Positions 3,401 to 32,200 of a stretch of DNA of 64,000 bases are shown here, piece after piece. Position 1 is the stretch's first letter, and each line of letters opens with the position of its first letter. Under the pieces are notes generated by a model. That model was not told the origin of the DNA, did no database searches, and was given only the letters and a program-made list of their open reading frames with translations. A program made the translations under genes and the position numbers. Source of the stretch: Lepisosteus oculatus (Eukaryota; Chordata; Actinopteri; Semionotiformes; Lepisosteidae); NCBI RefSeq assembly GCF_040954835.1, contig NC_090699.1, forward strand, positions 15,307,817 through 15,371,816. Direction: 5' to 3'.

Positions 3401-6400
3401 GTCCTGTGATGGGCTGGTGTCCTGTCCGGGGTGTGTGAGAGTGTGTGTCTGTGTGTGTCCTGTGATGGACTGGTGTCCTGCCCAGGGTATGTGAGAGTGT
3501 GTGTCCTGTGATGGACTGGCGTCCTGTCCAGGGTGTGTGTGAGTGTGTGTCTGTGTGTGTCCTGTGATGGACTGGCGTCCTGTCCAGGGTGTGTGTCTGT
3601 GTGTGTCCTGTGATGGACTGGCGTCCTGTCCAGGGTGTGTGTGAGTGTGTGTCTGTGTGTCCTGTGATGGACTGGTGTCCTGTCCAGGGTGTGTGAGAGT
3701 GTGTGTCCTGTGATGGACTGGTGTCCTGTCCAGGGTGTGTGACAGTGTGTGTCTGTGTGTGTCCTGTGATGGACTGGTGTTCTGTCCAGGGTGTGTGAGA
3801 GTGTGTGTCCTGTGATGGACTGGTGTCCTGTCCAGGGTGTGTGTGAGAGTGTGTGTCTGTGTGTGTCCTGTGATGGACTGGTGTCCTGTCCAGGGTGTGT
3901 GACGGTGTGTGTCTGTGTGTGTCCTGTGATGGACTGGTGTTCTGTCCAGGGTGTGTGAGAGTGTGTGTCCTGTGATGGACTGGTGTCCTGTCCAGGGTGT
4001 GTGAGAGAGTGTGTCTGTGTGTCCTGTGATGGACTGGTGTTCTGTCCAGGGTGTGTGAGAGTGTGTGTCCTGTGATGGACTGGTGTCCTGTCCAGGGTGT
4101 GTGTGAGAGTGTGTCTGTGTGTGTCCTGTGATGGACTGGTGTCCTGTCCAGGGTGTGTGAGAGTGTGTGTCTGTATGTGTCGTGTGATGGACTGGTGTCC
4201 TCTCCAGGGTGTGTGAGAGTGTGTGTCTGTGTGTGTCCTGTGATGGACTGGTGTCCTGTCCAGGGTAAACCCTGCCTTGCACCCACTGCTTGCTCTTCCG
4301 TGACCCTGTACTGGATAAAGTGGTTTGAAAATGGGTGGATGGGATTAAAATCACCTTTGCCTTACAAAACAGGAGGAGTTACTGAACCAAGCTGGACAAA
4401 TGTTTTCCTAAGCGTCCAATCAACAGTTTTGTTTTGGCAGAGATGTACAGTGCCTTGCCTTGTGTTTACTGTGTTTTCTGTTTTTCAGGTATTGAACCCA
4501 AAAAGGAAGAGGAGGATGGGAAGTATGTGCCTGTCAACGTTAGGATGCAGAGAACACAGGTGAGCGGCCCTGCAGCAGGGCAGGCTGTCGCCCCGGTCCA
4601 CGCTCTTTCAGAGTTGATTGAATTGCCCCGTTCAGGGGAGCCCCAGGTCTGTCCGGGGGTGCCTGTGTGGCAGCAGTCAGATAGCAGTTTGAGCCACCTC
4701 AGGCCGGACCAGCTGGGCGCAGGTCTTGGGTGTGTGTGCAGCGTATCGGTCAGGCCCTGCAGTCACCCCTGGGAAGGTGGGGGCCAGCCGCCGTGCTGTG
4801 GCTGTTCCCCGGGGGTAGTGACCCCACATCCTCCACGGCCTGCCTTTAAAGGCCCCAAGGCAGACCCTGGGTGGACCGAGACTCCGCACTCGGTCTTGCT
4901 GGGAAGGCTGGGCCTCTGTAGAAGGAAGTGATCCAGGTGAGGAGGGAATGTGGCGCTGAGGCCTGCGCTCCAGAGCTCTGTGTCTGGTTAGAAAGTGGAG
5001 GAGACGTGCGCTTGGAGTTGACCTGTGTGCCAGAGCCCGTAACACCTGAAGTGCAACAAAGTGCCCTGCAAGATTTTGTCCCGAGCTCCCCCGTCTGTGT
5101 TGCTGACCGACGCTCTGTGCCCCCCGCAGCACGGGATCCTGTCGCGGGAGTTTGTGGAGCTGATGGGCAGATGCAACGCCGTGCAGTCGCAGTACAGGGA
5201 CCGCAACGTGGAGAGGATCCAGCGCCAGCTGAAGATCAGTGAGTCTGCGCCTCCCGCTCCCGCCGCAGGGCACTGGAGCGAGACACGGCACGCTCCTGCT
5301 CTCCGGGCAGGGCTCTGCGCTCTGTGACGGAGCTGACGGGCTGTGGAAATGGCGTCCTTGTCTTGTGCAGGGAAGGACCCTTTGATCTAGAACAGCGGCT
5401 GAGCTGTGTCCTTAGCTGACCTGGAATGGGGTTCCCTCAGTGGTGCCACGGAATTGGTGAGCTGGGCGGGTTTGTCCTTGGCTCTTGTGAACCTTGTGAG
5501 AAGCTCTCGCGGGCGGAGCGGTGGCTCTGTGGCTCGGGATCCCGCGGCCGGCAGAGGAATCCTACTCCATTAGGCCCCTGAGCGAGGCCCTTCACCCCAG
5601 CTGCTCCGGGGGTGCTGTATAAATGGCTGACCCTGCGCTCTGACCCCCAGCTTCTCTCTCCCTGTCTGTGTGTCTCATGGGGAGCAAGCTGGGGTCTGGG
5701 AAAAGACACATTCCTAATGCAAGAGATTGTATGTGGTGATCTTATCTTATCTGCATCAGGACTCTGATTGATGTCTTGTGCAGCTGTTGGTGCCATGGGG
5801 CTCAAAGTAGTAGTAATAATTCCTAACTCTTATATAGCGCTTTTCTGGACACTCCACTCTCTACCTCTTTACAGGTAATGGGGTCTCCCCTCCTGGATGA
5901 TGCTCCAGTCTGCTCACACACACCAGCTCTCAGTGGGGAGGAGAGCAGAGTGATGTAGCCAGTTCAGAGAGGGGGGTTATTAGGAGGCCATGGTACAATG
6001 ACAGACTAAAGCGAACAGTGGATTGGGCCAGGTTTTAACTGAGGCTGGGAACAAACAAAGTTAATCCCAGTGGTTTATGCCATAGAAATTAAAACAGATC
6101 CTTAAAGAGGACCTGCAGTCAGATTCTTAAGCCTCGGTAACAAAATAAATCCATTGACGGTACAGAAAAAAAATGTACAGATTTCAAGTGAAGCACAAAA
6201 TTGTGAACTTTGTGAAAATACTATGAGTCGCCATGGTGTCGCAAACTCACCTTCGAGTTCCCATGATTTGTCACCTGAAGCAGCCCTTCCTGCTCACTAG
6301 CCACTGTAATAACTAATGTAATTTACCAGCAAATTAGTATAGTTTGTGCAGGAGACATTTCACTGCAGAAACGCTCCAAGTTAACAAGCAAGTAGTATTT

Positions 6401-9400
6401 GTAGGCAAAACAGTCCCAAAGTGGAGAGTAATATTTCTTTTGGATTAAAAGAGTTCTATTCACAAGCCTGCTTGATTACAGTGTCACAGGGCTACACACA
6501 TCACCAGAAATTTCGTTACTGTGCTCTGAAACACAGAATATGAGGCTGCACATGCAGCACCTGGAAGTTTAATCTATTTTGTGGCGTAAATAGGAGGCAA
6601 CGCCGATTCTTTCTAACCCCGGGGGTATAAAAAGTAGCGGTGCAGTTCCCCTGCTCTGAAAGGACAGCAAAGTACAGGAAACTGAGGGGGGGGGTCTTCT
6701 ACAGAGCTCGTGGGTGAAGGGTCTTGTCCTAAACCTTTCTTCTGTTGTTTGTGCTCTCCCTGTGCCTCTCCACGCGCTCCAGGCGATCAGTAAGTTTTCC
6801 TTTTCTCCATGTCTTTCGTGCGTTTCGACCCAGCGTTCCTGGGTATCCCCTCTCCTGCACATACTGTCCAGCAGAGGGGTCCTTCAGAAAGCCTCGCTCC
6901 AGCAGATGAGCTGGGCAGCAGACCTGTTGCAGCAGGACGTGTTTGTGAAAATAGAGTAGAGTAGTCTTTTGACAATAGCGGGATGTAGTGATGTAGTGTA
7001 GACATGTACTGTATGCAACGACAGAACAAAATAAAGTGCCGAGGTGCAAGTAAAGACCTGTGTACTGTTAAACACATGTAGACGGCACCGCAAGAAAGTG
7101 TGTTCGTTTATTTTTTGTGCATTATATTTTGTGCCAGGCATTGGCCTATAGCAGTTGATGTGTCGGTGAGGCCCGGCTGTGTGTATCTCTCAGTACCCCA
7201 TGGTGCTGGTGTTCTGAATGTGTTGGTGAGGCCCGGTTGGCCCAGCTGTGTGTGTATCTCTCAGTACCCCATGGTGCTGGTGTTCTGAATGTGTCGGTGA
7301 GGCCCGGCTGGACACGGCTGTGTGTATCTCTCAGTACCTCATGGTGCTGGTGTTCTGAATGTGTTTGTATCTCTCAGTACCCCATGGTGCTGGTGTTCTG
7401 AATGTGTATGTATCTCTCAGTACCCCATGGTGCTGGTGTTCTGAATGTGTGTGTATCTCTCAGTACCTCATGGTGCTGGTGTTCTGAATGTGTTTGTATC
7501 TCTCAGTACCTCATGGTGCTGGTGTTTTGATTCTCAGCTGGGACCAACGTGACGGACGAAGAGCTGGACCAGATGCTGGAGAGTGGACAGACGGATGTCT
7601 TCACACAAAATGTTAGTGCTGTTGGAGAAATTTTTCCATCTCCCCATTAAAAGATAGTCAGGAGTCCATCTCAAAAGTTTTTTAAAAATCATGCACATGG
7701 AAGTGAAACACACAGAGATGCTTTGTGTGTTTTTCTCAAATTGATTTAATTAGAACAGTCCTTAAATATTTTTCTATTATCTATCACACTTCCCTGTGCT
7801 GATTCTAATACAATTGGTTAATTAGTTTTGTAGCCCAAATTTAATTAGTTCCCATATAATACAGTATAGAATTACTTAAGAATGTATTAATGTACTGGAG
7901 TGTCCAGTCAGTCAGTGTGTCTGTATGAACCCCTCTCTCTCAGTGCAGTGTTAATGTACTGGAGTGTCCAGTCAGTCAGTGTGTCTGTATGAACCCCTCT
8001 CTCTCAGTGCAGTGTTAATGTACTGGAGTGTCCAGTCAGTGTCACGAGAATATAGGATTATCCTATGTTTCTGGATAATCATTGGGCACCCTTCCCCACC
8101 TCTCTCTCAGATCCTAAGGGACACACATGCCACCAAGCAGGCCCTGAACGAGATCGAGACTAGGCACGAGGAGATCCTGAAGCTGGAGAGGAGTATACGA
8201 GACCTACACGAGATGTTCCAGTACCTGGCCATGGAGGTGGAGGCCCAGGTGAGCCAGCCCACCTTTCTCACACCAATCCCAGTGGTTAATTTTGTGAAAA
8301 ACAGACAAGAAGGTTTCCAAAAGCCATCCAGTTTTCCCCCCTGTGTGTAAAGTAGAGCCTCCTGTCCTGACTGGAGGATCTCATCCAGCTGTTTCTTGAG
8401 AGAGGTCAGGGTATCGGCTTCAACAACATGGCTGGGCAGCTTGTTCCACACTCCAGCCACCCTTTGTGTAAAGACGAGCTCCTGCTCCCAGTCCCCATTA
8501 GCGCCTTCCTGGGTGTTGCAGCCTGTGCGTCACCACTGCCCTCAGCCTCTCCCGGGCCGTTCTCCGCCCGTGCTCGTCCGCCCCCGGAGTCGGCACGCGC
8601 CAGCTGGGCCCTTGTCCTCTTGTCTCGGCAGGGCGAGATGGTGAACCGCATCGAGAGCAACATCCTGCAGTCGTCCAACTACGTGGAGAAAGCCACGGCT
8701 GACACGGAGAAGGCCAAGGAGTACCACGTGAAATCCCAGAAGGTGAGGGGGAGGAGGCTTCAGGGCTGGGGTGGCGAGCGAGCCCTTTAACAACCATCGC
8801 GTCCGGTTTTGCAAAGCCCGTCTCTGCAGCTGGGGGTAATGGGGCATCCTTTCTGTTAGTAGAGGGAGGTGTGAAGAGCAAGACTATGCCCTTTTTTCGC
8901 TCAAGGCATGGTCTCCTGATTGGAGGTGGGGGGGGTGGGGGGTGGGGGGTGGGGGGTCAGGGGTCAGAGGTCAGGGGTCAGGGGTCAACCTGGCGAGCGG
9001 CAGCAGGCAAAACCGGAATGCGGTCCCGGAACCACAGGCTGAACCCGGAGGGCACGAGCGAGCGAGAGCAGCGAAGGGAGAATCCGGTACCAGAAAGCAG
9101 GGAGTAGGAGCAAATCCGGGGAGCCGGGGAATCTCGGAGCGAGTACGAGAGCCGCGATCGGAGGACACCGTGACGAGCTCGGGGTGGTCGTGACGGAGCG
9201 GCTGGCGGGTCACGCGAGTGGGGCGGGTCATCTGCCCCAGCGGGTGGTAACGGAAGAGTCCGAGCGGGCAAGAGGGAGGGTGCCACCAACTCTTGACACA
9301 GGGCACAGGTGCCATGTTGAATGTTGCATTATGGGATTGGTCGTCTTCCTGGTTCGATGGTCCATACATACTACATACATGTAGTGATGCATGCATGAGC

Positions 9401-9730
9401 AAACGCACACTGGCACGTGTATCGGTGCTGACACGCTAGCGCTTAAACTAAAACAGGATACTTGTTTTAGATGTTCAGGATCGTTTTGGGGCAACTCGGG
9501 ATCGCAGTGGTTAGCCCTGTCCTGTGAGGGGCAGTTGAGATTAAATACTTCTCCTCAACATGGTGGCACGTTGTGCTGCCCGTCTCCGCCTTGTGCAAAG
9601 ACGCGTGTCGGTGTCAGGCTGGACTGACTTGCCACCTGTGTTCTTGCAGAAGAAGCTGTGCATCGCGGTGTGCGTGATCGTCCTCATCCTTGTCATCATC
9701 GCCATCTTGGCCGGCACGTTCGCCAGCTGA
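455..9730 (+). CDS. STX4: Syntaxin-4, last seven coding exons (5' part outside window)
   Basis: Plasma-membrane Qa-SNARE that pairs with SNAP-23 and VAMP in regulated exocytosis. Coding exons read as 455-529, 4489-4559, 5130-5238, 7538-7611, 8111-8248, 8632-8742 and 9650-9730. All have AG/GT borders and matching phases. The first exon gives the end of the Habc region ([18 protein letters not shown]). Next come [20 protein letters not shown] and [16 protein letters not shown]. The SNARE motif spans 8111-8742 and includes [20 protein letters not shown]. The zero-layer glutamine lies in [12 protein letters not shown], with the exon junction directly after Q. The final exon encodes [20 protein letters not shown], a C-terminal membrane anchor, then a short tail ending FAS and TGA at 9728-9730. 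The pattern matches STX4 better than STX1 or STX3, especially IEPKKEE and NVRM before HGILS. The N-terminal exons lie before base 1. The frame is intact throughout what is visible. Confidence 0.95.
880..1640 (+). mobile_element. V-SINE/DANA-like SINE with an expanded internal minisatellite
   Basis: The head (tRNA-like gggttcgattctg, then a gtgtagagtttgcatgctct core) lies at about 893-985. The tail (cttgctgggatagactccag ... gtactggataaag) lies at about 1575-1630. Between them, 1021-1555, the internal segment 'gatggactggtgtcctg' is tandemly repeated about nine times with a period of 56-58 bp and gtgtgt spacers. It sits in the STX4 intron before exon 4489. Confidence 0.8.
1641..2900. other. Intronic sequence of STX4, mostly without recognised features
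   Basis: No coding exon is visible. Positions 2125-2250 hold two or three ~60-bp units (ctgaagggagtgtcc ... gagtctctttagt). These are the reverse complement of the 48.75-49.03 kb minisatellite unit, so both belong to one dispersed family. Confidence 0.5.
2915..4330 (+). mobile_element. V-SINE/DANA-like SINE with a ~1.15-kb internal minisatellite
   Basis: The SINE head and core (gggttcaattcttggggtgc, gtgtggagttcgcatgttct, caaagacatgctggtaggat) are at about 2918-3095. The tail (ccctgccttgcacccactg ... gtactggataaagtgg) is at 4266-4325. Positions 3110-4265 hold over 20 copies of the 'gtgatggactggtgtcctgt' segment with variable spacer length (about 37-58 bp). Long minus-strand open frames here (up to 463 codons) are by-products of the repeat. 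Confidence 0.85.
5505..5790 (+). mobile_element. tRNA-type SINE (second family), copy 1
   Basis: Shares a long block with 35885-36165: 'cccgcggccggcagaggaat', 'cctgagcgaggcccttcacc', 'tgctgtataaatggctgacc', and a tail related to tcttatcttatct. Copy 2 retains a tRNA-like promoter head (ggttgctggttccaatccc). Confidence 0.7.
5805..6010 (-). mobile_element. SINE3-type 3' body fragment
   Basis: On the minus strand this reads '...ccccattacctgtaaag...gtggagtgtccagaaaagcg ctatataag', the same tail as the 5S-derived element at 14.79-15.24 kb. The 5S head is absent here. Confidence 0.6.
6011..7165. other. STX4 intronic sequence, no feature recognised
   Basis: AT-rich at first and then mixed. No exon, RNA gene or named repeat was identified by eye. 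Short open frames at 6569-7141 have no recognisable domain. Confidence 0.4.
7168..7530 (+). repeat. Minisatellite of ~43-60-bp units abutting an STX4 3' splice site
   Basis: Seven or eight units contain 'tatctctcagtaccccatgg' and 'tgctggtgttctgaatgtg'. The longer first units also carry 'ggtgaggcccggctg'. The array ends a few bases before the acceptor ttgattctcag at 7537. Each unit carries its own tctctcag. Confidence 0.85.
7885..8045 (+). repeat. ~63-bp minisatellite (splice-site-linked family), STX4 locus
   Basis: About 2.5 units of 'gtactggagtgtccagtcag' plus 'gaacccctctctctcagtgc'. The array lies about 65 bp before the STX4 acceptor at 8110. The same unit makes large arrays in BCKDK and QPRT introns. 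Confidence 0.85.
8340..8475 (+). repeat. Unclassified dispersed repeat, copy 1
   Basis: Contains 'atctcatccagctgtttctt', 'cggcttcaacaacatggctg' and 'gcttgttccacactccagcc'. The same block occurs at 41285-41405 and 62040-62215, so it is an interspersed repeat and not a gene part. Confidence 0.6.
8920..8990 (+). promoter_or_regulatory. G-rich tract followed by a GGGTCA/AGGTCA direct-repeat cluster
   Basis: A run of ggggtgggg blocks (about 8925-8955) leads into four spaced hexamers of the RGGTCA type (ggggtcagaggtcaggggtc...). The spacing is one or two bases, like nuclear-receptor DR1/DR2 sites. It lies in the last STX4 coding intron. A function is only possible, not shown. Confidence 0.3.
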
Positions 9731-13089: not shown

Positions 13090-14790
13090 CACACATTAGT
13101 ACAAGAGGGCTTGGTTCCTTCCAGACTCAGGCGGTCTGGGACAGCGACCTCGGGAGACTGTGCAGCGGGCCAGCGAAGACCGCCCTGCTGGCTCTGGGTG
13201 GGTGGCACAGCTAGGGAGGGCACGAGCTCCAGTGTCTTTCTGCTTTCATGTCTTCTGTGTCACCCTGACAAGCAAGGCGCCCAGGGGAAGGACTCAAACC
13301 TCCGGCTCAGAAAGAGCAACACCCCCTGTATGTAGCAGCGTCCACTGTATTCATTATATCATACGGAATATGAGTACGAGTAATCATGACTAAAGATTAA
13401 GGAGAATGAATAGATACACACTGTATAGTGTGAAAACAAATCAGGGCACATGAATATATGTGAATTAAAAGAAATATAGCTGATCTCAACTACGTGAAAG
13501 TTAATGGTTATCAAGCAAGATATGGTGCTTTTACCGGGTTTATATGCAGTATGTGGTGCATACATAAAAATGCTTATGACATCTTTCACTACATGATCTC
13601 ACTAGATTTCACTACATTGCAAGGCAGGGCATAAAATAAATGTTGAACATTTATCCAGAAATGTAAAATTCATGATATGAAGTATAATGTTGGTGGTTGA
13701 GTCCTTTTTACTGCACTGGCCCGACAATGAATGAATGTTTTCCTAGGCTTCGATTGGGTTTTTGCGGGGTTAACTGGTGTCTCTAACCTGTGCCTCTGTG
13801 CGTCCTGCAGTGGACTAGTATCCCACGCAGGGTGTGTTCCTGCCTTGAGCCCCAGTCTAATGGGATGGGCTCCTGTTTGCTATGATCCTTACCAGGAAAA
13901 CGTGGGATCCCGCTTAAGGATTCTTCATCATAGACCACACAAACCTTCAAAGGGATCCAGTCAATTAAACTTATGTTCTAGTGTTCTGCTATTTTGGATT
14001 TCTTCTGTAAAGCTTTGCTGGAGTATGTTTGCATTGCGGAGCGCAGTTAATTGAGAACAGTTGTGCCATGCAGTGGAATTCACCCCTTGCCTATCTGAAA
14101 AGAATTCTCAGCAGCGCATATCCTACAGCACCCACAACACTGACAGAAACAGCCAACTGAGAACCTTCAACCACCTGTAATAAAGAAGACAGAAAAGGAT
14201 ATTATTCGTGTCATATCATCAAACACAAGCTGAGTACTGAGGCGGCCTGTAATTTGCAAAGCCGGAAAGGAGGAGGGCACCAGATTTTCAGGAAGGCCTG
14301 AGAAGTCAGAGGGGCAGAAGACAAACATGCCGTAAAATGAGCCTTGAGCATAAAAAACACTTTTTACTGACGCATTATACTAGTCACCCTGGCAGTTAGT
14401 GTTTTTGTGACGGTGGCATTTGCTAATTTTTTGTGCGTTTCTCTTTTAAAAAATCTGCGCCTGCCAGTTGTGTTTGGGTCTGGTTCGGCCCACGGTCGCT
14501 GTGGTACCTAGTCCTACTCGTGCTGCTGTTTCCCCATCCACTCGTCCCCGGGATCAAGTCTGAGGGGCACCGTCATGTGGAACGAGTGAGTTCGACTGTC
14601 CCTCTTCCGCTGTTCCATTCTTACCCCAAGCTGTCCTCCAACGACAAGGACCTTGAGGGACTGGTCCCTGGTCCGAAAAAGACTGAGAAACACACCCGGT
14701 GCCGGGTGTTACCCCCACAGGCACAGGGTGGGGAGCGACACCTGCTCTCGCACTGCTGTTTAATCTGTCCCTTTAACAGAGCAGCTGTTA
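13090..14790. other. Intergenic, no gene recognised
   Basis: A decayed plus-strand SINE 3' half is visible at about 13770-13890 (cctgcagtggactagtatcc, then a gcctt/ctgtttgc tail). The rest shows no exon or known repeat by eye. Confidence 0.4.
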
Positions 14791-16871: not shown

Positions 16872-17830
16872 CTGCGCGGAGAAACCGCGGCCGTATCTCA
16901 GCTCCGTGACGAAGTGCTCGCAGTTGCGGGAGGGGAAGGAGTACCCCACGACCGTACCGATCTTCGCCTCGGCCTCCTGCATGATAGCGTCGACCGGGAG
17001 GGGTGGGTGGATCTGATCCTTGTTCTGGACTCTGTAATCGAGCCCGGGCCCGGCTACGTCCTTCAGCAGCTCCTTCAGGACGTGGGCATGGGACGACGTC
17101 GCGGAGGAGAAATAGCCAGACAAGACCCTGCCGCCGCCCCCGCCTGGAGGACAGAGGAACACAAATGCACACGTGCAGCTTTCTGAGGACGCCCGCCGAC
17201 CTGTGCCATAGGGCTTAACCAGCTCCAGAACGCTCAGGCCGGTCAGATTGGGCCGCGTCTGTCGCTGTGCTTGGAGATTTTGTCATCACGTCACTTTCAA
17301 GAACCACTTTTCCAATTCAGGGTCACAGTGACGTGGGAGCCTGACGTGGGAAGCACGGGGCACGGGACAGATCCTCACAGAAACACACACTCGCACCAGG
17401 GCCAATATTCCCAGAAGCCAATTAACCCACCAACCTACACATCTTCGGACTGTGGGGAGAAACCAGAGCACCCAGAGGAAACCCACATGAATACGGGAGA
17501 ACATACAAACTCCACCCCCAAAGAATTGAACCCGGGACTCCTGCGCTGTGAGGCGGTAATGCTCCCCACTGGGCCTCCATGCTGTCCATAATAGTTTCTC
17601 TCTGTTTCAATAGTTCACTTTTGTGCCCATAACACACCATGACCTCTGCAATACTCGGTTCTACCGTCCTTCCTACTGGCAGAGGCTGTGGTTCAGTTCC
17701 GAAAGAACCTGAGCAGTGATTCACCTATGGGTGCCAAGTGAATCACGTAGCCATCGCCCATGTACAAGCCCCAGTGAGTGAATCTATCCCTGGGGAACTC
17801 CAGGAGGTCTCCTCGGTGCGGCTCGGGGAA
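16872..17830 (-). CDS. PLAAT/HRASLS-like phospholipase-acyltransferase, unit B
   Basis: A second LRAT-like unit directly downstream of unit A on the same strand, in exons 17725-17830 (106 nt) and 16872-17143 (272 nt). These are nearly the same sizes as the matching unit A exons (106 and 269 nt), with the same phases (0 in, 1 inside, 0 out). Exon one has [29 protein letters not shown]. Exon two has [37 protein letters not shown] and [18 protein letters not shown]. The His, His and Cys expected for catalysis are all present. No ATG exon of its own was found between 17831 and 18564, and no C-terminal anchor exon was found below 16872. It is either a separate tandem paralogue or the second half of one two-domain protein with unit A. 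Confidence 0.75.
17300..17590 (-). mobile_element. V-SINE/DANA-like SINE between PLAAT unit B exons
   Basis: The minus strand carries the core (gggtttcctctgggtgctct) and head (cccgggttcaattctttggg). It lies between exons 16872-17143 and 17725-17830, so it is intronic in unit B. Confidence 0.8.
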
Positions 17831-18114
17831 CTGGAAAACACACCGGAAGTGGGAGCCGTCAGTTCAAATCTTTCCTGCGATCATGGCGTTATCAAGAAGA
17901 CCCTCCCCTTATTCCCCGGCAGTGCGTGGCTCAGGAGAGTAGTACAGGAGAGCCTTGATTTTGAAGGAATCTGAAGCCGGTTCCTTCAAGCTGTTCGACA
18001 AAAGCGATTCGGGGCTCAAGGGATCACTGCTGTCTGAGCGGACAGGACGAGTCGAACTGTGACCCTCCTTACATTTCTATCAGGTGATAACTGCAGTGAT
18101 AGCTGATAACATAC

Positions 18115-18355
18115 ATCCTTTTCCTAACGCCTTTATCCAGTGCAGGGTCATGGTGGAGCTCGGTCGTATCCCTTCAGGATAGGGGACGGGCCCTAGCCCA
18201 TCACAGTACACACACTAGGGCCCATTTCCCCTCAGCCAATTAACCTAAAAGCATGTCTTCAGACTGCGGGGAGGAAACTGGAGCACCCGCATGCAAGCCA
18301 TACACAAACAGCACCCCAGCGTCCCAGCACTGTAAAGCAGCAATGCTGACTTCTC
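18115..18355 (-). mobile_element. V-SINE/DANA-like SINE, diverged
   Basis: Minus-strand core (ccagtttcctccccgcagtc), aattggctgaggggaaatgg, and the tail near 18120 (gcgttaggaaaaggatg). It lies between PLAAT units A and B. Confidence 0.65.
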
Positions 18356-18564
18356 TACTTTTCTCTGTTGCTTTTTATGCGAAGCCTCCCTGAACCACAG
18401 AAACCCCAGCAGTCCTTGCAAGGTGGCAGTGTAAAGGTCCACATCGGGTGCTGGATATTTCAAGCTTGCTAACTGGCTCCTCCTTTGCGCGGGACAAATT
18501 ACTCACGAGCCCACCGTTTACTGCGAGACCGAGGAAACGGGGGAGTCGTTCTGGCTTCTCTGAC

Positions 18565-21500
18565 CTGGTCGGTGAAAGGCATGTTGTATCTCAGCGCGGC
18601 CACGAAGCGCTCGCAGGTTTTGGGCGTCACGGGGTAGGGCAGGACCTCATCTACCATCTTCTCTGCTTCTCTGATGATGTCACCGCCAGGCCGCGGGCGA
18701 TACCTGCTGTCGTATTTGTTGTTGACGCGGACTCGTGAGAACCCAGGTATGAACTCCAGCCTCTCCTTCTTAACCATAGTTTTGACGTCGCCAGACGAGG
18801 CGAAGAAGCTTCCTGAGCCAGCCGTATTCTTGGCTGGGCAGACAGGAGGGAAGAGCAAGGATGGCAGACGGTTAATGTTAAGCTAGTCACAGACTGTGCT
18901 AATACACACCCCCTTAACGCAACTGGAGAGAACTTCTGCAGGGGTCCTCTTGATCTAGGGGGGCTTCTGCATATGACAGCGGGTGGGGAGGCACTTCAGA
19001 GGAGGAAGAAACAAGTTAGGTTCTCTGAGATCCTGTGGGATGAAAACTGCTACAGATGACAGCAACTATTACTGAGCTACTGTACTCATCATGCCAAGAG
19101 TACTGTGTATATACTGTACATGCTGTCCTGTACACTCCATACTGACAGTGCTGCTCATCCCATGGTTACTGTCACTGCACACCACATAGTGAGAGTACTG
19201 TACACCCCATACTGTAGTGACAGAGATTACTGACATGAGCTGCTATTACTATTTATCTAAAACAACCCTCAGATCAATGAACACAGTGTGCCTCTGTGCA
19301 GGCCAGTTATAGTCAGCAGACAGGAAGACTCCACATACTGGAATGAGCGAGATGGACCACATATCCTTTGCCGGTGTACAGCACCCAGTGGTGGGCAACA
19401 TCCCGAAGAATCTCTATAATGTCTCCGTTCCGTAGTGTGGCATACTAAAAAGAACAAAAGAAAAAGAAAAATGAATCAGTGTCTTTTTGTCATCTTTGTG
19501 GACTGGATGTTACTGAAATACGATCTTTGAGCTAGTGGGAAACCGACATGCTGTTTTCCCAGTGTTACACTGGCTCTCCTGGTCATGGAATCTCACATCG
19601 TTGTCCTCTGGCCATCCTTTGACCTTGCTGTTCCTGGTCTTACCAGGAACTTACTTTCCAGCCACGCTTACTGATCACTGCTACACCCACTGATCACAGC
19701 CTCACCTACTGATCACTGCCACGCTTACTGATCACTGCCACACTTACTGATCACTGCTACATCTACTGATCACAGCCACGCTTACTGATCACTGCTACAC
19801 CTACTGATCACAGCCACGCTTACTGATCACTGCTACACCTACTGATCACAGGCTCACTTACTGATCACTGCTACACCCACTGATCACAGCCTCACTTACT
19901 GATCACTGCTACACTTACTGATCACTGCTACACCTACTGATCACAGCCACGCTTACTGATCACTGCTACACCCACTGATCACAGCCTCACTTACTGATCA
20001 CTGCTACACCCACTGATCACTGCTACACCTACTGATCACTGCTACACCCACTGATCACAGCCTCACTTACTGATCACTGCTACACCCACTGATCACAGCC
20101 ACGCTTACTGATCACTGCTACACTTACTGATCACTGCCACACCCACTGATCACAGCCTCACTTACTGATCACTGCCACGCCTATTGATCACTGCCACGCT
20201 TACTGATCACTGCTACACTTACTGATCACTGCTACACCCACTGATCACAGCCTCACTTACTGATCACTGCTACACCCACTGATCACAGCCTCACTTACTG
20301 ATCACAGCCTCACTTACTGATCACTGCCACGCTTACTGATCATTGCTACACCCACTGATCACAGCCTCACTTACTGATCACAGACTCACTTACTGATCAC
20401 TGATACACCCACTGATCACAGCCTCACTTACTGATCACAGACTCACTTACTGATCACTGCTACACCTACTGATCACAGCCTCACTTACTGATCACTGCTA
20501 CACCTACTGATCACAGCCTCACTTACTGATCACTGCTACACCTACTGATCACAGCCTCACTTACTGATCACTGCTACACCCACTGATCACAGCCTCACTT
20601 ACTGATCACTGATACACCCACTGATCACAGCCTCACTTACTGATCACTGCTACACCCACTGATCACAGCCTCACTTACTGATCACTGCTACACCCACTGA
20701 TCACAGCCTCACTTACTGATCACTGCTACACCTACTGATCACTGCCACGCTTACTGATCACTGCCACACTTACTGATCACTGCTATACTTACTGATCACT
20801 GTCATACTTACTGATCACTGCTACACCCACTGATCACAGCCTCACTTACTGATCATTGCTACACCCACTGATCACAGCCTCACTTACTGATCACAGCCTC
20901 ACTTACTGATCACTGCCACGCTTACTGATCACTGCCACGCTTACTGATCACTGCTACACCTACTGATCACAGCCTCACTTACTGATCACTGCTACACCTA
21001 CTGATCACAGCCTCACTTACTGATCACTGCTACACCTACTGATCACTGCCACGCTTACTGATCACTGCCACACTTACTGATCACTGCTATACTTACTGAT
21101 CACTGTCATACTTATTGATCACTGCTACACTTACTGATCACAGCCTCACTTACTGATCACTGATACACTTACTTACCACTGCTACACTTACTGCTTACTG
21201 ATATACTCACTGATCACTGCCAGACATATGTGCAAAATGTGGCTAGTTTTCAAAACTACACCTGGCTGTGCACAATGCGCACAGACCATATAAAATCCTC
21301 AAGATTTGTACTGGCCATTTTCAAGAAATCTACCACATTGTCTTGCATGCCTTAAAACAAGCACCAGGGCCTGACGGGTTAAGGAGGAAAGTGCCAAATG
21401 TCTGAATTGGGCAACTTCCAAAGGTATTTTACCCCACTTTCTCAGCTTGTGCTCAATGTCCATACTGTGCCAGACGTAGGGAAGGCATCTACTTTTGTAC

Positions 21501-24500
21501 CTTTTCCCAAAAGGCAGGAGGCTTAATCATTTAAAGACTTTAGACCTTTAGCTCTCAGTAATGTTATCAGTAATGGACGTTTTGGATCCTTTACCATTTG
21601 CTGACAGAGCACACAGAGAGACAGAGGATGCAACACTTACTTTAGTTGAGTTCAGAGCCAAGCATCTCCAGCATCCAAATTCTTTGGTGCAGGCCCTTTT
21701 TTATTGATTTTAGCTCTGCTTTCAGTACTATGCAAGTTCATTTATTTTACAATGCCTCTTTGCCTTGCATGTGGATGGGAGTATTCTACACTGGATTGGA
21801 GACTTAGTAGCAGCAGTGAGTAGAGGAGTTTATTGTCATATGGAATTCTTCACCACGCTGATCTCCCGGGACATACACAGAACAACAGACAACACCACAC
21901 ATTGTAGACCACAGGGACAAGAAGTATGTTGTGGAAAAATAAATAAACATGTAGTAGTGAGACCCCAAAAAATGGTAGACTCTAAAAAATTCCGCAGTGC
22001 AGATGTGCATGAAGGCACTGCAGTTGGCGGACTGCAGTGGGACAGAAGCTGTTCTGGACTTCTTCACAGATAGACCTCAGGGAGTCCACATGAACAGTGT
22101 GTTCTCAGATGAATTGGTTTTTAAATGCAGGTGCTCCCCAAGGTTGTGTGCCGTCACCCCTCCTGTTCTCCATATATTGTTATATTGTAGCGCCCTCATC
22201 AGGCAGCCATGGGGCACAGAGCAGACAAGCAGTCCCTGGGAGAGCACGCTGGGATAGTGGGGAACTTGTCTGGGATAGTTAGGAACTATCAGGAACATTC
22301 CTAACACCTAGGACTTGGGGGGAAGGACAGGAGTTTGTGTACATGGGGTGGAAGACTATGTGTGTGGCTGTCCCATGTTTCCCCATCTGAGTCCGTGACC
22401 TCAGGTTCCCACCCTGACCTGCCTGGCCTTTGTCAGTCAGGACGCTCACCTTCACCAAAACCTACCCTTCTTCTTTTGGTGGTTGGGGGGAGTGATCTTT
22501 TATGGAAATCACGTGTTTCATTGAGGAGACTCTGGAGCACCTGTTCTGGAGCTGCCCCTTCGCCAAGGCAGTGTGGGGCAGGATGGACAAAACTCTTCAG
22601 CTCCTGGGACTGGTAACTCAGTTACCAGTGCATCCTGCTGGGGCTGGCACTGACCACACTGGACAAGGGGACACAGCTCCTGCTCCTGATAGAACACGGA
22701 CTGTGGACGACGAGGTACACTCTCATCCGGCACGACACAGAGTGGGGAGCGAGGGAGCTGGAGGAGAGGATCCTGGCGGACCTCAGAGGGAGGATGTGAT
22801 GAGTGATGTCATCAGGTGAGGCTTCTCCACAGTGAGGGAGCGCTGGAGGGGACTGTGGGACTGTACAGGGATTAAAGAGGAAATCCCTGTGCTCTGAGCT
22901 CCTGCTCCGCAGTTCCAGAGCCGGGACAGGGAGAAAGGCAAGGACGACAGCAGGAGGCAGGGCCTGGAGGGACTCTGTTTGTGCCAATCCAGCCCCAGCA
23001 ACCACTTGCACAGATTTAAAAAGGACAATCAGCCTTTAAGAATAACATTTGTTATTTTAGTAGAGATTGCATGGTTTTGTTAGAGTGTGTAGTCACTGTA
23101 AGATGTCTGTTGTGAAGTTTATTTTGTTAGAAAAAAAATGTCTTTAGACTGTGGGAGTTAACCCATGTGAACAAGGGGAGAGCATACAAACTCCACACAG
23201 ACAGCACCCCAGAAGTTAATCCAGGTCCCAGTGCTGTGAGGCAGCAATGCTGACCACTGTGCCACTCTGATAATGTATCAATTACTGCAATTATTACTTT
23301 TAACCTATGTGAAAATAACTGAGTAAAAGTGTGATACTGAGAACACAGTGTGCCCCTGACTTCTATGATAGCCTATAGGTCCTTGAAGGCCCTTAACAGT
23401 GTGTCTGCAGCGGGGCTGTCCAGTCCTGGTCCTGGAGGGGTCAGTCAGTGTGTCTGCAGCGGGGCTGTCCAGTCCTGGTCCTGGAGGGGTCAGTCAGTGT
23501 GTCTGTAGGGCTGTCCAGTCCTGGTCCTGGAGGGGTCAGTCAGTGTGTCTGCAGCAGGGCTGTCCAGTCCTGGTCCTGGAGGGGTCAGTCAGTGTGTCTG
23601 CAGCAGGGCTGTCCAGTCCTGGTCCTGGAGGGGTCAGTCAGTGTGTCTGTAGGGCTGTCCAGTCCTGGTCCTGGAGGGGTCAGTCAGTGTGTCTGCAGCA
23701 GGGCTGTCCAGTCCTGGTCCTGGAGGGGTCAGTCAGTGTGTCTGCAGCGGGGCTGTCCAGTCCTGGTCCTGGAGGGGTCAGTCAGTGTGTCTGAAGCAGG
23801 GCTGTCCAGTCCTGGTCCTGGAGGGGTCAGTCAGTGTGTCTGTAGGGCTGTCCAGTCCTGGTCCTGGAGGGGTCAGTCAGTGTGTCTGCAGCAGGGCTGT
23901 CCAGTCCTGGTCCTGGAGGGGTCAGTCAGTGTGTCTGAAGCAGGGCTGTCCAGTCCTGGTCCTGGAGGGGTCAGTCAGTGTGTCTGTAGGGCTGTCCAGT
24001 CCTGGTCCTGGAGGGGTCAGTCAGTGTGTCTGCAGCGGGGCTGTCCAGTCCTGGTCCTGGAGGGGTCAGTGAGTGTGTCTGCAGCAGGGCTGTCCAGTCC
24101 TGGTCCTGGAGGGGTCAGTCAGTGTGTCTGCAACAGGGCTGTCCAGTCCTGGTCCTGGAGGGGTCAGTGAGTGTGTCTGCAGCAGGGCTGTCCAGTCCTG
24201 GTCCTGGAGGGGTCAGTCAGTGTGTCTGCAGCAGGGCTGTCCAGTCCTGGTCCTGGAGGGGTCAGTCAGTGTGTCTGCAGCAGGGCTGTCCAGTCCTGGT
24301 CCTGGAGGGGTCAGTCAGTGTGTCTGCAGCGGGGCTGTCCAGTCCTGGTCCTGGAGGGGTCAATCAGTGTGTCTGCAGCAGGGCTGTCCAGTCCTGGTCC
24401 TGGAGGGGTCAGTCAGTATATTTGCAAGTTTTCCAGGTCTCAGCGGCAGCATATGGAGAAACATATGCGGACGAAATGTTGTATCTTCTTTCTTTCCTTT

Positions 24501-25738
24501 TCAGCATGGAATAAACCTATGACTTTCTAATATATATATTTGTCTCTGTGGTGCAGAAACCTTTAAATGTACGGTGTCTCGAACCGTGTGCCATTAACGG
24601 TGGAATAAATAACAAATCGTACTGTACTGTATGTGTCGCAGGATGTGGGCCACTGAGGCAGTAGCAGGCTGGGATTGATTGGGTTATGTTGATTTCCAAG
24701 GTGGCGTTTCCTCACTCAAGGGTGGCGACTGCAGTTGTTCTAATGAATACCGTCTAGCAGGAGCAGTCAGTAACAACGGTCAAACCCAAGTCGTTCAGGG
24801 ACCAATTAGGTATCGATACTTGGAGGTGTGAGGAGTCGCCGAGCCAGTTTTATCCAGACCAAGGGAGGAGGAGGGAGAGCCGGAGAGTGAACAGGTGATA
24901 AGGGCCCATAACACCTCGCTCGGGACTCCCACACCCCTCAAACAACGCGAGCTTCCTCCTGGGAAATTACTGGGCGAACCCGATTCTGCCAGGGACTGTG
25001 GAAAATTCCCTGAGAAGGGATTGGCTAAGGAGAGGGGTAAAAACACCTGAGACAGAACAGAGGGAGCCCCCCGATTCCCTCTGGATCCTGGAGACGACAC
25101 AGGCGGCACCAGGGAAGCTGCAGAGTGCGAGACCACGGAGAACCTGTGCCGAGACTTCTAATACCTAGAGGCGAGGAACAAGGAAACTGGCCCAGCTAGC
25201 CGATTCAAACTGATACCCCTCTCCTTCAAGTGGGCCATAAGAGACTACAGGTGCTAAGAAGAAACGTTCGAGTGGCCTCTCTTCAGTATTTTACAGGGAA
25301 GACTGCTGCCCCTCTGTATTCATTATTCATGATGTGTTATGTATTCATTATGTATGTATTCTGTATTCATTATTCACCCTGGGAAGGATCTTTTGCTGCT
25401 GCGAATACCGTTTTCGTTGTGTTTTGGGGTGATAGTGAATGTAAACGTGGTTGGAAAATAAAAAGGGCACTTATGCAATACAAACGCCTGTCGCTGGTCT
25501 GTGTGTGCATTGGTGATTCTGGGAGATAAAGAGGACCTGTGGTAATGTAGAGGGCCCATAGCACCCCGTTTGTATTGCTAGGTGGCGTAGTCGTACACGA
25601 GGCAGGAACATTCCTCGCCCATAGGGCTCCCCTTACTGTGACATATGTAACGGCATTTTATGCACCTTCGGGAAATAAATGAAGACAACCGTATTTAAAA
25701 CAATAGAAAGAAACGACACTTACGTTGAAATCGCCCAT
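18565..25738 (-). CDS. PLAAT/HRASLS-like phospholipase-acyltransferase, unit A
   Basis: Members of this LRAT-like thiol family act on phospholipids as phospholipase A1/A2 and N-acyltransferases, usually at membranes. Three exons are read: a short first coding exon 25724-25738 (MGDFN, followed by gtaagtg), 19339-19444 and 18565-18833. Phases match throughout (0, then 1). Exon two has NGDIIEILRD, HHWVLYTGKGYVVHLAH. Exon three has VNNKYDSRYRPRP, then TCERFVAALRYN and FTDQ before the donor. The catalytic His-His-Cys set of the family appears present (HHW, VVHLAH, TCERF), although the usual NCEHF is TCERF. The family normally continues after '..DQ' into an exon with a hydrophobic C-terminal anchor. 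None was found before unit B, whose first exon has the same phase. The MGDFN exon rests on the ATG, donor and phase only. Confidence 0.75.
19665..21215. repeat. 19-bp minisatellite, ~1.5 kb (TGATCA in nearly every unit)
   Basis: About 80 units of 'actgatcactgctacaccc' / 'actgatcacagcctcactt'. The two variants often alternate as a 38-bp dimer. A ~350-bp higher-order block seems duplicated (compare 20730-20870 with 21020-21150). It lies in the long first intron of PLAAT unit A. Confidence 0.9.
21345..22200 (+). mobile_element. Decayed LINE reverse-transcriptase fragment with an inserted repeat
   Basis: Translates with frameshifts into non-LTR RT landmarks: APGPDG near 21365, RPVAL-like and DPLPFADRAHRETEDA near 21545-21630, ALFIDFSSAFSTMQ near 21695-21735, and GAPQGCVPSPLLFSIY at 22133-22180. 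A separate repeat (about 21800-22090) interrupts it. Type resembles the CR1/Rex/L2 group. Not functional. Confidence 0.75.
22380..23130 (+). mobile_element. 5'-truncated LINE 3' end, copy 1
   Basis: Encodes EETLEHLFWSCPFAKAVWGR, which fits the C-terminal zinc-binding tail of some LINE ORF2 proteins. The rest matches 33373-33960 closely ('ggctggcactgaccacactg', 'gagggagctggaggagagga'). Frames are broken. Confidence 0.7.
23130..23275 (-). mobile_element. V-SINE head fragment
   Basis: Minus-strand 'gtggagtttgtatgctctcc' core and 'agcattgctgcctcacagca' head, joined directly to the LINE tail before it. Confidence 0.6.
23398..24420 (+). repeat. ~45-49-bp minisatellite, array 1
   Basis: About 21 units of 'gtgtctgcagcagggctgtc' + 'cagtcctggtcctggagggg' + tcagtca. 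A shorter 'gtgtctgtagggctg' variant recurs at a regular interval, which indicates a multi-unit higher-order repeat. The same unit makes array 2 at 35.25-35.61 kb. Confidence 0.9.
24630..25600 (+). mobile_element. Possible solo LTR or LTR-element remnant
   Basis: An unrepeated ~1-kb block with a promoter-like middle and an AATAAA at about 25457, followed by a GT-rich stretch (tctgtgtgtgcattggtgat). This resembles retroviral or Ty3-type LTR layout. No flanking target duplication or internal gene was identified, so the call is weak. Confidence 0.25.
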
Positions 25739-29287: not shown

Positions 29288-32200
29288 CTAACGGAGGAGC
29301 CCGCCTCCCGAGGCGTTGTGGTTCAGGAACAACACCTGCTGCACGGCGCCGCTCCTCAGCCGGCTCCTCCGCGCCCGCAGGACATCCCCGGACTTGGAGA
29401 AGACCTGGTGGCCCGGCACGGCCGCCGCCGGCAGGCCGAGGTACTTGTAGGCCAGGCGGGCCAGGCCGGGGTACTTGGCGGAGTTGGCGGCCCAGTAGCC
29501 GAGCGGGTCGGCCGCGCGGGCGAGGTAGGCGTCGCCGACGTAGCGCTGCATCTCCACGGCGGCCTCGGCGGCGGCGCTGCCGCGCGCCCTCTGCGTCTCC
29601 CGCACCCTGGAGTCGAACTCCTCCCACAGGCTGGGGCCCGCGGCGGCGGCGGCGGGGGGGGCCGGGGCCGGCGGGGGGGCGCCCGCCCGCGAGCAGCACT
29701 CGCCCACCAGGAGCCGCACGGCCTCCTGGGCGCTGTCGGAGCTCCCGAAGGCCAGGACCTTGAAGCGGGGGTCCAGCAGGGTGCTGGCGGCCAGCGGGCG
29801 GGCCCGCTCGGCCTCCGCCCCCCGGCTCCGCACGCCGGCCTCCAGCTCCGCCAGCAGCGCGGCGGCCGCGCGGTGGCTGACGCGCCGGCGCCGCTGCTCC
29901 AGGGCGCGCTGCAGCATCTTGGTGAGCGGGATGACCTTGGAGGCGGCGACGCGGGGCTCCGAGGCCAGCTCGGCGGCCGCCGTGTGGAAGGGCTCCAGGA
30001 CGCCCAGGCACTGCCCCGCCAGGTCGCACTCGGGGGCCGTCAGCGGGCCCACGTCCGCGCGCAGGGCGGCCAGCGCGGCCGCGACGCCCTCCTTCTGCGC
30101 CAGCAGGCCCCGCAGCATCTCGTAGGTGCTGCCCCACCTGGCCCCCGCCTCCTTCGGCAGCTTGAGCCGCGGCCCGCCCAGCTGCCCCTGGATCCGGGCC
30201 AGCTTCTCCCGGGCGGCGGGACAGGCCCGGAAGAGGCCCACGATGGCCCTCGCCTTGGCCCGGACGGCGTCCAGCTCGGGCGCGTGCCGCAGGGCGCCGG
30301 CCACCAGCGAGTCGAGGGCGCGGGCGAAACAGGGCAGGTGGGGGAGGTCCAGGCGCCGGGCCGCCGCCGGCACCACCTCGGCGTCGCCCGTGACGACGGC
30401 GGTGACCTTCCCGCGGAGATCCCAGGCAGCCAGCACGCCGCCCAGGGCCTCGGAGACGTGGGCGGACGTCGGGGGGCTGGGGAAATGGAGGATGTCCAAT
30501 AAATAGGTGGCGAGCCGGGCATCCTGGGAGACAAAGTGGCCCGTCACCGCGAGGTAGGCGTCCTCGCGGGCGGACGCCCACATGTCCGTGCTCAGGCTGA
30601 CGTGTTGGGCCGCCCGCACCTCCGCCATGACCCGGTCCCTGTGCAGGGCGTACCGGCCGGCTGCCATGCTCTTGAGGGTCTTCCTGCTGGGGAGGGCGTA
30701 CCGGGGATCCAGTAGCGTCACGAAGTTCCTGAAGCCTTCGTCCTCCACGAGGGAGAAGGGCTGGCAGTCCCCGGTGATGACGTCCAGCAGCGCCTCGTCC
30801 AGCGTCCTCTTCCTCGCCGCCCTGGCTGCACACAGGAAATCAACGCTCAGAAGCCGTAATCGGAAAACACGGGTCTTAATGGGGGGGGGGGGGGGATTCA
30901 TACAGACAGGGGACTCGTCTCTGGGCTGCGAGAGGAAGCCCCAGTACTCCGAGATCAACCCCCTCCAGACCCGAGGAGAACATGCAAACTCCCCACAGAG
31001 CGTGCCCCCAGATCCCCAGTCGAACAGGACCCGAGGGCTGTGAGGCAATTAAACACCACTCCGCCCCTGAAGAGTATTCAGGAAAAAAAAAAATTAAAAA
31101 AAAAAGGCAAGAAATTTAGGAAAATTATCAGCAGCAAAAATTCTGAACGTTCCAAAAATCAATGGGACTTCCTGGAGGGAAGGGTGCACGTTTTTGTCCT
31201 GAATAATATACGATATTCCCTGGCCGGGCGGACAGTAAGTTTGCCAAACAACAGAAGACCACTGCTCCCTGCCCTAGAGGAAAGAACAATAATTATTTTT
31301 AGGACATCTTGCACCAAATATGAAAGGCCTACTGAAGCGGTATTTTTAACGAACCCCTTTCAAAAAACAAGCCTGTTGTGAGAGGCAGTCTCAGGGCGTG
31401 CACAGCTGCTGGTATTGTCCGCAGGGCCGAGGGCACTGCAGCCTGGAGGAGTGCTCAGAGCAGTCTTCAACCGCCCTCGCCACATCTTACAGGTGCGCTA
31501 TGGAGAGTGTGCTCCCGTGCGGGATCACAGTGTGGTTGGGCAGCAGCTCGTCGTCTGAGCGGAAGGCTGTTCCAGGGGGCGATCGGGTCGGCCCGGCCCC
31601 TCACTGCAGTACAGCTCCCCTCTGTTTCAGACATTTCTACAACTCGCTGTCTCAGGAGGGCTGGCAGTATGGCTAAGGACACCAGTCAGCCTGGTTCCTC
31701 ACTGTTCTGCCCCCTTCCCTCTGGTGGGCGTGACAGGAGTATAAAGGCAGGAACCTCCGGATTCAGAGACCAATTCGTCCTGCAAGCTGTCAGATTACTG
31801 AACCCGACCCCGACCACTGGCGCACACTGATGTGTTTTTTCCCCACACTGCTTCTCTGACTTTCCTTTAACGTTATTTAACTTGTTGTTGTTGCTGCTGC
31901 TGTTATGAGTTTATGTTTTTTGGCGATTCCTTTAATGTCTCTGTTATAGGAGCCGCACGTGCAAATAAGCAGTTCCTTGCACTTGTGTGTCTGACAATCA
32001 ACCAAACTCCGAACTCTCAGAACCTCACGGCGCGGTTCACCTGGATCGCCGGGCGCCGGGCGCGCGGCTCCGTCGCCATCCGGCGCCGCGTCGTACTGCT
32101 CGGCGTGCTTGACGCGCAGGTGCCGGACCATCCCGGAAGTGTTCTTGTGGTAGGACAGCACGGTCCCACACAGCGAGCACATCAGCTTGTTGTTGGCAAA

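Follow-up and report, generated by a model that had tools for sequence, protein, structure and literature searches.

A predicted gar gene with two PLAAT-type catalytic domains, the first of them altered

Proteins of the PLAAT family (HRASLS; human PLAAT1-5) degrade lens organelles and act as N-acyltransferases; a recent review describes the human members as combining a single catalytic domain with a proline-rich stretch and a hydrophobic domain (PMC11989323). In the gar Lepisosteus oculatus (assembly GCF_040954835.1, contig NC_090699.1, positions 15,307,817 to 15,371,816), two exon pairs that each encode a PLAAT-like catalytic unit, here called A and B, follow one another on the minus strand, which raises the question of whether they belong to two neighbouring genes or to one gene encoding both domains in a single chain. 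We analysed the whole 64,000-nucleotide (nt) stretch, referred to as the window; coordinates are window positions unless another contig is named. The tandem two-domain reading of the locus is the best supported, as known here from the DNA and from predicted gene models: most probably a single gene encodes a two-domain protein whose second domain is predicted to be an enzyme.

Gene Structure and the Junction between the Units

Joining six exons on the minus strand, from 25738 to 14091, gives a protein of 283 residues. The features are as follows.

25738-25724, minus strand: exon 1 (A1), 15 nt, start codon exon encoding MGDFN (identical in the bowfin protein), donor GTAAGT
19444-19339, minus strand: exon 2 (A2), 106 nt, first part of domain 1 with His24 and His36
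18833-18565, minus strand: exon 3 (A3), 269 nt, remainder of domain 1 with Cys114 in TCERF
18564-17831, minus strand: inter-unit intron between A3 and B2, 734 nt; repeat-like DNA occurs inside about 18130-18295
17830-17725, minus strand: exon 4 (B2), 106 nt, first part of domain 2 with His149 and His161
17143-16872, minus strand: exon 5 (B3), 272 nt, remainder of domain 2 with Cys240 in NCEHF
14174-14091, minus strand: exon 6, C-terminal anchor, entered in phase 0 and encoding VVEGSQLAVSVSVVGAVGYALLRILFR followed by the stop TAG; present in the identical NCBI model
13018-13013, minus strand: AATAAA, a putative poly(A) signal, the sole AATAAA/ATTAAA between 14090 and 12500 on this strand

The first five exons lie where an earlier note on this DNA had put them, and their sizes and phases were confirmed: the intron ends flanking A1, A2, A3, B2 and B3 are GT/AG, and the pairs A2-A3 and B2-B3 are each entered and left in phase 0. 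The same note had found no anchor exon after unit A. Our DNA scan likewise found no anchor-like exon between A3 and B2, but an anchor exon does exist after unit B, at 14174-14091. Direct reading of the sequence also revealed two long short-tandem-repeat arrays, at about 19660-21240 and 23395-24410, inside the first intron of 6.3 kilobases (kb).

The decisive junction is that from FTDQ (18565) to FPEPHRGD (17830), for which the earlier note had proposed a phase-0 join producing a two-domain protein. This join is found in the NCBI gar model, in an older gar model (P0008) that also crosses from A3 to B2, and in the bowfin model, where it reads FTEE to FPEP. The six-exon join is identical to NCBI 'phospholipase A and acyltransferase 3-like isoform X2 [Lepisosteus oculatus]' (P0001; 100% identity, 100% coverage), and FTDQ to FPEP is the exact junction of this 283-residue model.

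Two separate tandem genes, with small exons missed, would be a familiar arrangement, since tandem PLAAT genes are common in vertebrates, those of human 11q12 among them, and Ensembl models unit B alone (W5M4K7, P0004). In shrew, more than 30 plaat3 duplications are reported (PMC10760033). The DNA between the units speaks against this arrangement, being only 734 nt long and partly repeat-like; a scan of this intron found no AATAAA/ATTAAA and no anchor-like exon. Seven in-frame ATG-to-GT candidates for a start exon of unit B emerged from the same scan, none of them convincing when judged by eye. At 18225 and 18151 the start context is good, but both candidates fall inside the repeat-like DNA and their donors are poor. 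Neither an anchor exon for unit A nor an ATG exon for unit B, the features that the note had named as arguing for two genes, could thus be convincingly identified between 17831 and 18564. Moreover, the bowfin junction is identical in position, and the missing Met of the Ensembl model fits unit B having no start exon of its own. We consider two genes very improbable.

Mutually exclusive cassettes offer another arrangement, in which one start exon and one anchor exon would be spliced via either A2-A3 or B2-B3 to give two alternative single-domain PLAATs. The phases permit this, A1 to B2 and A3 to the anchor both being in frame, and either product would be a normal-sized PLAAT. Yet the gar and bowfin models hold both domains, P0008 joins A3 to B2, and neither an A1-B2 nor an A3-anchor junction occurs in the gar records among the matches listed (P0001, P0004, P0008). 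Such alternative splicing appears improbable.

The anchor scan was unselective, with six minus-strand and 11 plus-strand matches over the whole window; between B3 and 9000 it returned the exon at 14174 and one other match. The assignment of the anchor exon at 14174 therefore rests on the NCBI model and not on the scan.

The gar records also differ from the window protein at individual residues, P0004 by G167R, A180V and H186N and P0008 by S73P and R86H; from these differences the gene looks polymorphic or different between assemblies.

Domain Identity and Structure Model

Both units have the circularly permuted NlpC/P60 domain of LRAT type. The Pfam LRAT model matched unit A with an E-value of 7.3e-23 and unit B with the anchor at 3.8e-28, and the nearest solved structures by sequence, in a search of the PDB, were human PLAAT2, PLAAT3 and PLAAT4 for both units. 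These matches make it clear that the PLAAT-like character of the units is not due to chance. In the structure model, too, the best structure matches of either domain were human PLAATs. Membership of LRAT proper was considered and rejected: LRAT carries a specific insertion inside the domain (PMC5133064), of about 30 residues, and both gar domains align to human PLAAT2 and PLAAT3 with single-residue gaps only.

The catalytic Cys-His-His (or Cys-His-Asn) set of the PLAAT family is present twice in the gar protein, as H24/H36/C114 and H149/H161/C240. The statement of the earlier note that both units keep the His-His-Cys residues thus stands for gar. Around the Cys, however, unit A departs from the family motif: domain 2 has the canonical NCEHFV, whereas gar domain 1 has TCERF and bowfin domain 1 TCERW. 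Only two residues separate the matched stretches of domains 1 and 2, leaving almost no linker. The C-terminal hydrophobic membrane helix of PLAAT1-4 has its counterpart in exon 14174-14091, the hydrophobicity of which is moderate. The rule of one catalytic domain per protein is broken by the model identical to the exon join, which contains two, and the rule itself is not firm, as shown below.

The Bowfin Counterpart and Divergence of Domain 1

The earlier note had suggested searching for other two-domain proteins, and similarity searches returned a full-length bowfin relative together with further vertebrate proteins among the matches listed. The bowfin protein, Amia ocellicauda 'phospholipase A and acyltransferase 3 isoform X2' (P0002), has 280 residues and is identical to the gar protein in 160 of 284 aligned columns (56%) over its full length. 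It begins with MGDFN, shows the junction FTEE then FPEP at the gar position, and ends in a single C-terminal hydrophobic tail.

In human PLAAT3 numbering, gar domain 1 keeps His23, His35 and Cys113 (its His24, His36 and Cys114), with NCEHF changed to TCERF. Bowfin domain 1 departs further: in addition to TCERW, Thr24 replaces the catalytic base His23, and the Cys-His-His set fails. His23 and NCEHF were kept in all 161 single-domain relatives listed, which as top matches are biased towards conserved proteins. His23 is described as the base that activates Cys113 (PMC4624172), and substitution of any triad residue in PLAAT3 is reported to abolish activity (PMC11989323). From these PLAAT3 data, bowfin domain 1 is predicted to be inactive and the activity of gar domain 1 is doubtful.

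His24, His36 and Cys114 are nevertheless all kept in gar, as would be expected of a true tandem enzyme in which both gar domains are catalytic and cooperate, one for example deacylating and the other transferring. Its weak points are the TCERF of gar domain 1, set against NCEHF in 161/161 of the listed single-domain relatives, and the bowfin counterpart that lacks the base. A double mutation of the NC motif in PLAAT4, in which the Cys was also changed, is reported to lower its cell-killing effect (PMC2656461). We regard two cooperating active domains as unlikely.

Identity between gar and bowfin is 59.3% in domain 1 (73/123) and 56.6% in domain 2 (69/122); domain 1 is conserved to a similar degree, and so does not look like decay. 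This comparison bears on the proposal that unit A is a decaying relic which gene predictors have spliced onto a working single-domain gene B. The altered NCEHF and the missing catalytic His of bowfin domain 1 would suit a relic, as would the frequent degeneration of upstream domains in the listed multi-domain proteins, where 15/41 upstream domains are intact compared with 28/30 last domains (the proteins being related and not independent). Against a relic stand the intact gar frame, splice sites and MGDFN start and a bowfin domain 1 that is full-length and begins in the same way. Conservation of domain 1 is, moreover, not below that of domain 2, and no convincing start of unit B was found. It is quite improbable that unit A is such a relic.

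The gar and bowfin lineages diverged well over 100 million years ago. In a tree of individual domains, gar and bowfin domain 1 formed one clade (support 100/100) and gar and bowfin domain 2 another (99/92), and both clades returned in a second tree to which an ordinary gar PLAAT gene on contig C18 had been added (100/100 and 100/97). These clades place both domains in the gar-bowfin common ancestor and suggest that the two-domain form predates the split, if the two predicted proteins on which this rests are right. The stem of domain 1 measures 0.93 changes per column, compared with 0.23 for domain 2. This long stem, together with later conservation, suggests that domain 1 was reshaped early and then held. 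A search for single-domain kin of domain 1, which required shared five-residue words and covered proteins of about 72 to 227 residues only, drew 37 candidates, with two matches at E 1e-6, namely P0008 and a frog PLAAT2-like protein (40%).

Multi-Domain Relatives and the Origin of the Doubling

To place the gar protein among its relatives, we combined two similarity listings, the best 120 of 344 matches and the best 120 of 422 (the latter having scored 7,986 candidates), into 192 proteins. One of these was dropped, having no domain that covered 70% of the model, leaving 161 single-domain and 30 multi-domain proteins, 19 with two domains and 11 with three. In these counts kin are counted many times, and the query itself held the diverged domain 1. 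The earlier note had called two domains unusual for the family, which is half right, as two or more are present in 30 of the 192 listed relatives. These 30 are spread over gar, bowfin, a toad, squamates including lizards and snakes, songbirds, bats, a shrew, a desman and an elephant. Annotation fusion may account for some of the models; P0123 and P0015, in which the linker is hydrophobic or long, are examples.

Among these related, non-independent proteins, His23, Cys113 and NCEHF are all intact in 28 of 30 last domains and in 15 of 41 upstream domains. A Fisher test of this contrast takes the proteins as independent, and its value is not to be taken as a probability. Of the two exceptions without an intact last domain, P0003 and P0025, neither has a strongly hydrophobic tail. 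In P0005, P0009, P0121 and P0126 the last domain is intact and the tail is short or only weakly hydrophobic; an intact last domain is thus only loosely tied to an anchor.

The domain tree was built from every one of the 71 domains in the 30 multi-domain proteins and from those of 24 of the 161 single-domain proteins, aligned over 123 columns; because there are only 123 columns, many deep forks are unresolved. On this tree the label 'upstream' must have changed at least 14 times and the label 'last' at least 12 times (13 and 9 of these changes, respectively, being forced by starred branches). A common clade of gar/bowfin domain 1 or domain 2 with squamate domains was weakly rejected (p of the approximately unbiased test, p-AU, 0.027 and 0.040). 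These label changes and the weakly rejected squamate clade make several origins of the doubling likely. Gar/bowfin domains 1 and 2 as each other's closest kin, the outcome of duplication within one gene, were neither shown nor rejected (p-AU 0.413), and a grouping of gar/bowfin domain 2 with the ordinary gar C18 gene was not rejected (p-AU 0.433).

The C18 gene, a single-domain PLAAT3-like gene, has exon phases 0-1-0 and a phase-0 anchor exon candidate. Its exons lie at L009 1289-5221, with the anchor exon candidate at 5111, and NCEHF is kept; the best match of its exon 3, among five queries tried, was the teleost PLAAT3-like protein P0191. The shared phases imply that in-frame joins of a PLAAT exon 3 to a PLAAT exon 2 are generally possible. 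As the domain is coded by a module that is symmetric in phase (0 in, 0 out), its doubling keeps the frame, and repeated doubling may have a simple explanation in this.

Proposed Mechanism and Its Support

We propose that the locus is one six-exon minus-strand gene, running from 25738 to 14091, in which the symmetric exon pair for an entire PLAAT catalytic domain occurs twice. The predicted mRNA would encode a protein of 283 residues in which domain 2 comes straight after domain 1 and a single C-terminal membrane helix closes the chain. Domain 2, beside the anchor and with the full Cys-His-His set and NCEHF, would be the likely phospholipase A/acyltransferase. In it, His149 would activate Cys240 and His161 would provide the orientation; Cys240 would accept the acyl chain of a membrane phospholipid and hand it on to water or to an acceptor. 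Domain 1 is predicted to have kept the fold, to have been reshaped before the gar-bowfin split and to have remained under similar constraint since. Since bowfin domain 1 lacks the catalytic base, the role shared by the two species is probably not catalysis; candidates are folding, pairing with domain 2, membrane or substrate contact and targeting, and perhaps a regulatory task. Our high confidence in one gene with an enzymatic domain 2 overlaps with the chance given to two active domains, both sharing the same gene structure.

Several points weigh against this reading. The gar and bowfin models of NCBI seem to be automatic predictions, and one may have drawn on the other. The label 'isoform X2' implies further isoforms, and of the five member sequences of the P0001 cluster one entered the analysis. 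P0008 begins inside A3 and leaves the B3 reading frame, giving no support for the full protein. In P0004, unit B is preceded by six intron-read residues with no Met and followed by a tail that differs from the anchor exon, so that neither the anchor nor unit A is supported there. The lack of selectivity of the anchor scan counts here too, and equal phases weigh little for the join because the ordinary C18 gene has the same ones. The anchor is moderately hydrophobic (best 17-residue mean 1.9), and its helix (255-281) was modelled at low confidence, with block means of the predicted local distance difference test (pLDDT) of 51-58; with a predicted template modelling score (pTM) of 0.62, the model leaves the packing of the domains open. 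The long domain 1 stem of 0.93 makes its placement in the tree unsure, and gar domain 1, retaining His, His and Cys, may be active in that species.

More tentatively, it is possible, at somewhat less than an even chance, that the phase-symmetric pair has been doubled or tripled within one gene several times in vertebrates, with the anchor-adjacent domain as a rule staying an enzyme and the upstream copies turning into pseudoenzyme modules. The holostean upstream copy would then have been reshaped early, lost NCEHF, lost the base in bowfin and been fixed under constraint for a non-catalytic job, for example controlling or targeting its active partner. If true, the doubled form in both holostean lineages, its first domain likely non-catalytic, would be a natural experiment in the possible regulation of a membrane phospholipase in cis, and the wider multi-domain pattern among the listed relatives makes repeated birth of tandem pseudoenzymes testable with public RNA sequencing data.

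Relation to Known Systems

Like the PLAAT family as a whole, the gar protein has the LRAT/NlpC-P60 fold (in both domains), Cys-His-His residues and a C-terminal hydrophobic stretch; unlike it, the chain has two catalytic-type domains for a single anchor, and TCERF in domain 1. A full-length counterpart is bowfin P0002, which shares the two domains, MGDFN, the junction and the single tail, and differs by the missing first catalytic His and TCERW in domain 1. Squamate two-domain PLAAT-like proteins (P0016, P0018-P0021, P0125) resemble it in having three residues between the matched stretches and a single hydrophobic tail, but apparently stem from a separate duplication, as the squamate clade test suggests. 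The gar C18 gene is alike in exon phases and anchor exon layout and unlike in that one domain was found. In the APOBEC3 deaminases, with a fold and chemistry unrelated to PLAAT, the catalytic domain has been doubled repeatedly and one half is often not catalytic. The gar protein may be likened to the two-domain APOBEC3 deaminases (PMC2612020) by analogy only.

A model of the protein exists among the NCBI predictions, so in that form it is not new. What is new is that domain 1 is no ordinary PLAAT domain, with TCERF or TCERW and the base lost in bowfin, and yet is conserved like domain 2. We found no account of two-domain PLAATs at the top of the long literature result lists; one match for 'two LRAT domains' was set aside, as it refers to the two protomers of a dimer. 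The main text of a paper on plaat1 and plaat3 evolution (PMC10760033) contains neither 'tandem' nor 'bowfin'.

Neighbouring and Related Genes

On the opposite strand, some 4 kb past the anchor exon, lie exons of a syntaxin-like gene (5043-9730, plus strand). Five open reading frames (ORFs) scanned there against Pfam gave two weak Syntaxin matches and one weak SNARE match, all below the curated cut-offs, and two had no match; a strongly hydrophobic ORF ending at 9730 follows those that match Syntaxin and SNARE. Ten further window ORFs were compared with Pfam at E 0.001, with no match for nine. The tenth is a 586-residue open frame at 29291-31048 on the minus strand, which contains an hAT C-terminal dimerisation region (PF05699, E 3.3e-12) and is probably a transposase-derived copy. 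A PDB search with one further window ORF gave no match.

Elsewhere in the genome, a further LRAT-type exon pair on contig C17 (L010, about 5074-4473, minus strand) carries YNCQSF instead of NCEHF. A PLAAT1-like gene on contig C13 (L003 1459-2215) contains two apparent stops, which seem to lie inside a short intron after a GT donor, and as they appear intronic the gene is probably not broken.

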